Shown: in pieces, positions 19,601 to 25,569 of the stretch
How the letters are laid out: each line of letters starts with the position of its first letter
Position numbering within the stretch: position 1 is the first letter of the stretch
Assembly (NCBI GenBank): GCA_023053545.1
Contig: JAKZAN010000007.1
Coordinates: 6,200,001-6,264,000 of the forward strand
DNA length: 64,000 nt
Direction of reading: 5' to 3'
Origin: Lepidurus packardi
Taxonomy: Eukaryota > Arthropoda > Branchiopoda > Notostraca > Triopsidae
Notes under the pieces: generated by a model
What the model saw: the letters and a program-made list of their open reading frames with translations, nothing else
What the model was told of the DNA's origin: nothing
Database searches by the model: none
Translations under genes and position numbers: made by a program

Positions 19601-22600
19601 CTCTCATTTCTTATTCTGACAAAGCATCCTAAATCTTACAGCCTCCCTAAGTAAAAAAAAAAACGAATACTGAAATAAGCAACAGTGGAAAAAATGGAGA
19701 AGAAAGCTTTTTCTATACGTATATTCTACGAAATCTATTTTAATATTTATATCTTGCGCAAAAGGACGTATCACTGTATGTATTTGTAATTTAACAGATG
19801 ATTTTAGAGCTCTTGTGTTCTGCCGACAGCCAAATGGGCTTTATTTTTCGCTGACGCTACGCTTGTTTCTTTCGTTTATACTAGGTGATGGATGATCGCT
19901 GGGATAGCGAAGTCAAAGAGTTCGGCGCTGTGAACATCACGGGATTCCGCCTGGTTGATACCAGCCGTCCGCACGTACGGCAATTTCTGCGGGGATGGGA
20001 ACGTCTGGATCCTAACGTTTGGGTAGGAGCGGGTAAACCATACATAGCTGTAAGTGCACTTTTTCAACTTTTAATATCTCGCAATAGGGAAAGCCCTGCC
20101 CAGACCACCAGGGTCTGTTACAGATCAAGACCTTTTTTCTTGAAATAAAAACGTCATGATTCACCTGATAAACGATCTGGTTCCACCAGGCTCTCAAACT
20201 GAGTTTCAGTACTACGAACGATTCATTTGCAACCAACTAGAACTCATCTTTTTGACCAGGAACCCGTATTACATTGGCGAGGTCGAGGGTTGATTGGTTT
20301 GCAATACGCCGCTTCTAAAGCTAGGGACATAAACTCCTATTAGCCTCCGTTTCCTTGGCTATAATGACCAGTGCCTAAGCCTCAATCAAAACAAAGAAAA
20401 GATGGCGCCGTGCCCACTACCCCCCTTAGTGAGCAATGTCATGGTTTGGTTCCCTCATTTATTCCTTTTTTCGTTGGTAATTGCAGTCCCAGGCCGCATT
20501 GATGTATGACGCCGTCTCGCTCGTTGCTGAAACGTTTCACCGTTTACTGCGGAAGAAATCGGATGTCTTCCGGGCTAATTTTCGGCGAGGCGAAGTGTTC
20601 AACAACGGGACTCGAGGCATTGAATGCAACACCACGCGAGAATGGGTCACTCCCTGGGAACACGGAGAGAAAATTGCCAGATCGGCACGTAAAGTACGTA
20701 GAGCGTTCTCATCTTCGATCTCAACATTAGCATTTCCCCAGATAGGCTCCTTATAATCCTTGGTTACTCGCTCTATATTTATTCCAGATCGAGTACGAAG
20801 GCCTCACTGGTGTCCTGCGATTTAACGACGAAGGCAGGCGCGAAAATTACACGCTGCACGTCGTCGAAATGACTGTCAATAGTGATATCGTCAAAGTAAT
20901 TCATATGCATAGCTTTAATCTCACTCGGCTGGTTACAACGCATCTATTTGCACGAGAAACCTCAACTACATGCGGTGTTGACAATCTCTAATATGTTCTA
21001 GATTGGGGAGTGGTCTGACACCGATGGGTTCCGTGGTGTACCAGTCAAATACGTCCGATTACCGGCCGGCACTGGCTACGAGAAGAACCGAACCTATATC
21101 GTGACTACCCTGCTGGTTCGTAAACAATATCTTATTAATCGCAATTTGAAAGCATCATACTCTGCCTACAAATTCAATCTGCATTCTATTGATTTCCATT
21201 CATAGGAAGAACCTTATATCATGCTCAAAACACCTGAAAAGGGAGAGGTGCTTACTGGTAACGACCGCTTTGAAGGCTTCTGCAAAGACATGATGGATCT
21301 TGTAGCGGAGCGCTTAGGCATAAAATGTAAAAGCAATTTCTAGTACTTCACAACATTACTTTTCAAAATTATGTTGGGTTTTAAGACGAAATGAGACTCG
21401 TGAAGGACGAACGATATGGAAATGAAAATCCTAACGTACCTGGGGGCTGGGATGGATTTATTGGCGAACTTATTCGTAGGGTAAGTCTTGTTCAACTTGA
21501 CACTTCAGGAACCACAATAGAAAGATATTACCGCGCGTAAAAACACACGGACTACGAACACGACTTGTGGGTCTTAAGGTCACCGTTAGATAGCAGCACC
21601 GTCCAATCAAACTCAATTCCAGCCAGAAACTTACGAATTGCAAAATGCGTATACATTTCGAAAGGAAATAACTTTACCGGCTCTCGCTTCTTAATTGCCT
21701 TATCAAAATCATGGACTATAGAACAACAGATAATTAGTTTATTATTAATTATTATTGCAATTAATTTAAAAAAATGATGACAAGCTTTGGGTTCGCGTTC
21801 GTACCGTCGCAGGGATAAAGACTTAAACATCAGTTCCCGGCTTAAACTTGTGCAAATAAACCTTGGCTGACTAAATTAACTTAGTAGCGACTGAGCTTTG
21901 AGCCGTTCTGTTGTGATGTACCAACTTCTAGGAGGCAGACATTGCTGCAGGAGGCATAACGATTACGGAAGCCCGCGAACGTGTGGTGGACTTTAGTTCA
22001 CCTTTTATGGAGTTGGGCACGAGTATTATGATAAAAAAGCCCATGAAGCAGAAACCTGGATTTTTCAGCTTCATGTCACCATTAGCTATGGAAGTGTGGG
22101 CGGCTGTCGGGGCCGTTTTCATAGCTGTCTCATTAGTCCTCTACGCCGTGCATCGCTGGAGCCGCGTGGGTTGGAAAAAGATGCACAATCCTCGACGAGG
22201 CATGTACTACGTCAATGAGTTCACGTTCAGCAATTCCTTCTGGTTTTCTTTGGGAAGTTTGTTGAAAGCTGGCAGTGTAACGCTACCTAGGTGAGGATAT
22301 TTGCTGCATGCTTGTTATGTCTCCCCCTTCTAACTGCCAGAGTCCGGGAAAAGACAAGGAATCTCCCGTGTATACGCATCCTTGGGATGGTTGAACGCAC
22401 CCAAAGCTTGGAATCACAGGAGCGCAAGTTCTTACTGCAGAAAGAACACACACGCTTTTTTCTCGCTAAGCAAAAACTAATTGGAAGTTGTGTGTGTGTA
22501 TATCTATGGCTGACTAGGAAGCTGATATTGGCATGGGAGGCATCACCATCAGCTCCCAGCGGGAATCAGTAGTGGATTTCAGTAAACCTTTCATGGAGCT

Positions 22601-25569: not shown

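Follow-up and report, generated by a model that had tools for sequence, protein, structure and literature searches.

The branchiopod Lepidurus packardi carries a glutamate receptor gene in which two consecutive exons, here called A and B, encode the same part of the channel pore. Of the known control points for calcium entry through glutamate receptors, the Q/R site in this pore is the most familiar, and in the textbook account it is set by RNA editing. The locus raises the question of whether one gene can set its pore by splicing, and what each of the two pores would do. The gene was analysed in a stretch of 64,000 nucleotides, referred to below as the window.

Gene Structure and Receptor Class

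The amino-terminal exons were located by tblastn with full-length Daphnia, Palaemon, and Chamberlinius proteins. From e1 on, the exons were joined in a GT-AG model with one open frame. The features are as follows, all on the + strand:

2913-3065, amino-terminal-domain exon, borders approximate (tblastn)
7668-7802, amino-terminal-domain exon, borders approximate (tblastn)
8960-9090, amino-terminal-domain exon, borders approximate (tblastn)
17480-21480, exons e1-e8, rest of the amino-terminal domain and most of S1 (GT-AG model; tblastn)
17480-17612, 17731-17851, 19885-20049, and 20487-20693, exons e1-e4 (gene model)
20788-20895, 21002-21115, 21206-21326, and 21386-21480, exons e5-e8 (gene model)
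22992-23190, exon e9, M3 with SYTANLAAF and the start of S2 (gene model)
23246-25569, exons e10-e14, S2, M4, and the C terminus to the stop (gene model)
23246-23490, 23569-23677, 24253-24390, 25214-25288, and 25552-25569, borders of e10-e14 (gene model)

AMPA subunits were the nearest relatives by sequence, and the best 60 solved-structure matches of exon A and of exon B were all GluA chains. The gating motif SYTANLAAF and M3 were found in e9; the Artemia and Daphnia orthologues carry GluA names. Judged by its sequence, the window gene is an AMPA-class ionotropic glutamate receptor.

The 108.6 Mb genome was searched with e9 as query. Eighteen places were matched: the window gene at 100%, four loci at 69–73%, one at 52%, and the rest more weakly. 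The four loci at 69–73% were closer in fit to a kainate than to an AMPA receptor; the difference was clear for L009 and L010 and smaller for L011 and L013. Since these four best relatives lean toward kainate, no AMPA-class gene other than the window gene was found in the genome, of which the assembly may be incomplete. If exon A were lacking, none of the AMPA subunits encoded by the genes found would carry a positive Q/R site. Elsewhere in the window, weak tblastn matches to an ionotropic receptor channel segment (TQRVLMATWWIVGLLLTTFYTANL) at 58465-58761 (+ strand) probably mark another, diverged receptor gene.

Structure of the Exon Pair

The two pore exons and the intron between them are as follows:

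21932-22290 (359 nt), + strand, exon A, end of S1, M1, and pore loop; lysine at the Q/R site (22265-22267), valine at +4 (22277-22279)
22291-22517 (227 nt), + strand, A-B intron with GT-AG ends, containing one arm of a possible pairing that would loop out exon A
22518-22873 (356 nt), + strand, exon B, end of S1, M1, and pore loop; serine at the Q/R site (22848-22850), aspartate at +4 (22860-22862)

An earlier sequence-only reading of this DNA had described two consecutive exons that encode one protein segment with matching phases and intact splice sites. The gene model and Pfam matches confirmed this description, and its junction coordinates (21480, 21932, 22290, 22518, 22873, and 22992) were correct. 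Both exons begin in phase 0, and each breaks off after the second base of a codon. The acceptors are ttctag/G for exon A and gactag/G for exon B; the donors are AG/gtgagg and AG/gtattg, respectively. Pfam Lig_chan and Lig_chan-Glu_bd were matched above the cut-off by exon A and exon B alike. The two exons are 50% identical over 119 residues, far beyond chance. The divergence of exon A, described earlier as strong, is not diffuse and includes the Q/R lysine and the +4 valine.

The reading frame is open from e1 (17480) to the stop at 25569, giving 734 residues with exon A and 733 with exon B, counts that cover the modelled part from e1 on. Joining A and B shifts the frame and leads to a stop 17 residues after A, and skipping both leads to a stop 43 residues after e8. 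The locus thus combines adjacent homologous exons of equal phase with a frame that is broken by both or neither, as is typical of a mutually exclusive pair. Either-or use of the exons, as proposed by the sequence-only reading, is supported by this frame logic and by two Artemia isoform proteins that differ in exactly the A/B segment, and is the predicted mode of splicing.

Pore Residues of Exons A and B

The Q/R codon of exon A is AAA (lysine) and its +4 codon is GTA (valine), both in genomic DNA. HMMER was used to align exon A, joined to e9, with GluA2 chain 7lep_B, whose pore contains an arginine (WFSLGAFMRQGCDISPRS). The lysine was placed on the Q/R arginine, and the valine took the place of the +4 aspartate. 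Exon A resembles GluA2(R) in its positive Q/R residue; this residue is encoded in the genome and is not supplied by RNA editing. The A-type pore pattern is LL[KR]AG[SN]V, with K in the window and Artemia and R in Daphnia and the database protein P0001.

The Q/R site is K or R in all six A rows of the alignment, compared with Q, H, or S in 22 AMPA rows. The +4 position of AMPA receptors is usually an acid; it is V in the A rows versus D, E, H, or N in the AMPA rows. The charge of the M1-M2 loop is +1 to +4 in the A rows (6/6) versus −7 to 0 in the AMPA rows (21/22 parsed). In total, 18 columns separate the six A rows from the 22 AMPA rows, one row being partly gapped. Exon A is changed jointly at Q/R, +1, +3, +4, and the M1-M2 loop. 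The earlier reading had expected altered ion selectivity or conductance, and a change of this kind is supported by the residues at the Q/R and +4 sites, which are known for calcium permeability and polyamine block.

The joint change could also mean that exon A alters selectivity in another way, for example by anion passage or block by another blocker, with calcium being secondary. The changes at +1, +3, +4, and the M1-M2 loop, which accompany that at Q/R, and the positive loop of every A row would fit such a role. However, GluA2(R) is the simplest match, and the class has no known anion-selective member in support; this explanation is very unlikely.

Exon B had been regarded as a normal AMPA pore. 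It is of AMPA type and keeps the +4 aspartate, but its Q/R residue is serine (codon TCC), versus Q in Artemia B. Because TCC contains no adenosine, this site cannot be edited from A to I to yield arginine. In a placozoan receptor that naturally has serine at the Q/R site, this residue was reported to diminish both block and the permeation of calcium (PMC12226733), so the pore of exon B may likewise be non-standard. The positive Q/R charge of exon A, the Q/R serine of exon B, and a similar kainate gene widespread in Pancrustacea had been overlooked by the sequence-only reading.

The AlphaFold2 model of the Artemia protein P0002 had a mean pLDDT of 78.5 and matched AMPA receptors. The pLDDT was below 50 at pore residues 180-183. 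Because confidence is low at the pore apex, the model carries no weight on selectivity.

Conservation and Origin of Exon A

The sequence-only reading had suggested looking for the exon pair in related genomes. Protein searches found A-type proteins in Artemia and three Daphnia species and a B-type partner in Artemia; no B-type partner was retrieved for Daphnia. In the first search, 1257 proteins were matched and the best 120 were compared with exons A and B. Among these 120, P0001 and P0002 (Artemia franciscana isoform X2) fitted A much better than B, and P0003 (Artemia isoform X3) was B-type. P0002 and P0003 are identical over the first 67 residues and everything after the A/B segment, and they lie on contigs of equal length. 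The names X2 and X3 are database predictions as far as the entries show; database annotation had thus already produced both forms.

The second search used only residues 385-476 of the 734-residue query and gave 13 matches. Five were A-type (D. magna twice, D. pulex, D. carinata, and Artemia). The other eight had Q or H at the Q/R site and were not A-type; they came from three scallops, a mussel, Palaemon (two), a millipede, and one further protein. Exon A is carried by six database proteins, from the three Daphnia species, Artemia, and P0001.

A tree of 39 rows was constructed, from which D. magna P0122 was omitted as a near-copy of P0121. The six A rows formed a clade at 100/100. Within it, Artemia took the outermost position, and the window lay closer to Daphnia than to Artemia. 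Exon B of the window paired with Artemia B at 99/92. Artemia belongs to Anostraca and Daphnia to Cladocera, both within Branchiopoda. Since A occurs in both, exon A is, on this distribution, at least as old as the Anostraca/Cladocera split.

Identity between the window and Artemia is 70% for A and 71% for B, so A is evolving no faster than B. Over the first 40 codons, A and B agree at 30/40 residues and at 13/40 third codon positions. Because residues agree far more than third positions, both exons have been kept under selection. It could be argued that exon A goes unused, as a relic or pseudo-exon. Its open frame, good splice sites, and intact flanking phases speak against this, as do the orthologues joined to the constant exons in the proteins of Artemia, the three Daphnia species, and P0001. 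A relic is extremely unlikely, and a pseudo-exon or assembly error as the source of exon A was ruled out by the orthologous A exons of Artemia and the three Daphnia species.

The origin of A was considered with the same trees. In the free tree, two bivalve AMPA rows joined the A clade (97/90), and some mollusc AMPA proteins fitted A at 52–55% among the matches listed. Trees that constrained A with branchiopod B or with arthropod AMPA were not rejected (p-AU 0.26 each). Since the free tree favours the bivalve grouping, birth of A from a branchiopod B exon is one option only. Derivation from a kainate R exon was not favoured: exon borders and phases differ, and kainate-named or kainate-like proteins fitted A at about 43–46%, versus 50% for exon B, among the matches listed. 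Recent gene conversion between A and B was suspected from the GGITI and MELG shared by the two window exons. It is unsupported, because identity over the first 40 residues is 30/40 in the window and equally in Artemia, and third positions agree at only 13/40.

Alternative Pore Exons in Kainate-Type Genes

Alternative pore exons were also located in two of the four related loci:

L009 4897-4104 (C3:3092896-3092103), minus strand, kainate-type tandem pore exons
L013 about 4642-4063 (C3:1.647 Mb), minus strand, alternative pore exons in a two-exon and a one-exon version

In L009, the upstream exon K1 ends in GTLLRQGSGLNPK, with R at the Q/R site and glycine at +4, and the downstream exon K2 ends in GTLMQQGSDLNPK, with Q at the Q/R site. 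In L013, the two-exon pore ends in SLMQQGGDIAPK; the single alternative exon ends in SLIQGGSGVNPK, keeping Q and having glycine at +4. Alternative pore exons were thus present in three of the five AMPA- or kainate-class genes examined, and each has one copy without the +4 acid. Successive kainate-type exons of L010 (3397-3594 and 3792-3992, + strand) match one S1 ligand-binding stretch, and the ant protein P0109 seems to hold both. They form a second kind of pair, in the glutamate-binding domain.

When the query was confined to the K1 pore, 349 proteins were matched, of which 120 were examined. The R pore was found in 120/120 of the kainate matches listed, as expected from a query biased to R. 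Forty of the 120 also hold the Q pore, always after R and 86 to 182 residues on, and the other 80 have R alone. In five of the 40 the spacing is 86 or 87 residues, about one exon length. The 40 R-then-Q proteins are most likely annotation errors, in which gene models fuse two exons. Named matches with the R pore were from flies, beetles, bees, wasps, ants, bugs, termites, mayflies, dragonflies, shrimp, an isopod, barnacles, copepods, and Daphnia. No chelicerate or myriapod R pore was present among the 118 named of the 120 matches listed (349 in total). The kainate R/Q exon pair is widespread in Pancrustacea.

These R-then-Q models bear on whether A and B could both enter one protein and so be non-exclusive. 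The 227-nt A-B intron with GT-AG ends is long enough to be spliced. However, inclusion of both shifts the frame and places a stop 17 residues after A, and the kainate models holding both exons (40/120 listed, with exons that are multiples of three) are most likely erroneous. Joint inclusion is extremely unlikely.

Possible Control of Splice Choice

Two stretches of intron 1 can pair with the A-B intron:

21723-21747, + strand, intron 1 arm, pairing with 22467-22491
21775-21795, + strand, intron 1 arm, pairing with 22396-22416

The intron 1/A-B intron pairing was stronger than in 60/60 shuffles (z −3.3), and the other six of seven region pairs were unremarkable; the method ignores pairing within a strand, and one genome was used. 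Such pairing would loop out exon A and favour B, and is proposed as a lead only. Alternatively, one arm (22392-22406) could find its partner within exon B (22831-22845). Neither steric exclusion nor minor-spliceosome incompatibility is a likely cause of exclusion, the A-B intron having 227 nt and GT-AG ends.

Proposed Function

The probable explanation is that A and B form an ancient tandem pair, of which each transcript uses one, and that A makes a GluA2(R)-like, low-calcium subunit by splicing. Splicing in this animal, subunit assembly, and currents are inferred here from the observed exon structure, frames, residues, and conservation. B transcripts would give an AMPA-type pore, with Q or S at the Q/R site and an acid at +4, that allows some calcium passage and is open to polyamine block. 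A transcripts would give a subunit with a genome-encoded positive charge at Q/R, no acid at +4, and a positive cytoplasmic M1-M2 loop. In tetramers shared with B subunits, A would reduce calcium permeability, conductance, and polyamine block, the effect that edited GluA2(R) has in mammals. Transcripts with both exons or neither would be frame-shifted and probably removed by nonsense-mediated decay. Splice choice would thus take the role of Q/R editing.

The Q/R and +4 sites have been named for calcium permeability and polyamine block (PMC6307864), and editing of Q/R to R was reported to abolish GluA2 calcium permeability (PMC8257547). Removal of the +4 acid from a placozoan receptor made the current-voltage curve more linear (PMC12226733). 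The same report describes a placozoan receptor given Q/R arginine, which had small calcium currents, retained polyamine block, and was poorly expressed (PMC12226733). The simple GluA2(R) reading is partly weakened by this retained block and poor expression. Among 84 receptors that carry the +4 acid and belong to newly described groups, just one third had Q at Q/R (PMC6307864), so a non-Q residue there is not rare across animal iGluRs.

The A isoform might instead be made but conduct little or nothing, acting as a dominant-negative subunit or in control of assembly or trafficking. Four positive charges in the filter, as in homotetramers with four arginines, make for poor conduction, and arginine lowered expression of the placozoan receptor (PMC12226733). 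The A-type M1 also differs from AMPA M1 at several positions. Against this, the gating motif and M3 are common to the B isoform, A-type pores are conserved at about 70%, and mammalian Q/R arginine subunits function in mixed tetramers (PMC8257547). A low-conductance role is therefore rather unlikely, and the low-calcium subunit is preferred.

In Pancrustacea generally, the balance tilts slightly toward exon choice, rather than RNA editing, as the main Q/R charge switch of non-NMDA receptors, widely in kainate receptors and separately in the AMPA receptors of branchiopods. If this is true, calcium entry through glutamate receptors is a splicing decision in this group. A second, unrelated route to Q/R choice in two receptor classes would be a strong case of convergent evolution. 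The exon pair would also allow asking what calcium-permeable and calcium-poor receptors each do in the nervous system.

Comparison with Known Systems

Exclusive exons in AMPA receptors (flip/flop) and a Q/R charge switch (editing) are already known. No description of exon choice setting the Q/R charge was found among the papers listed, which came from a literature that mostly excludes subscription journals; the kainate pair may be described elsewhere.

Q/R editing of GluA2, and also of GluK1 and GluK2, is reported to place a positive Q/R residue in some subunits of one gene (PMC8257547), as A/B would. In the window gene, however, the residue is genome-encoded and chosen with a whole exon, so +4, M1, and the M1-M2 loop change too, and the serine codon of exon B offers no adenosine to edit.

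The flip/flop exons of vertebrate GluA1-4 are likewise mutually exclusive AMPA exons, for which frame shift and decay may police the choice (PMC8257547). They are 115 nt long, are located at the end of S2, and influence gating; A and B are about 357 nt and cover the end of S1, M1, and the pore. The A/B pair is therefore distinct from flip/flop, as the sequence-only reading had held.

In the pancrustacean kainate pair, as in A/B, the upstream exon has a positive Q/R residue without the +4 acid; its downstream exon has Q and usually D. It differs from A/B in receptor class, exon borders, and its far wider spread. Each kainate exon has a length divisible by three, so that including both would leave the frame intact, unlike in A/B.

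Voltage-gated channels and Dscam share with A/B the tandem duplication of exons and the use of one of n (PMC5740500). In contrast to these systems, the A/B choice would act on the selectivity filter of a ligand-gated channel.
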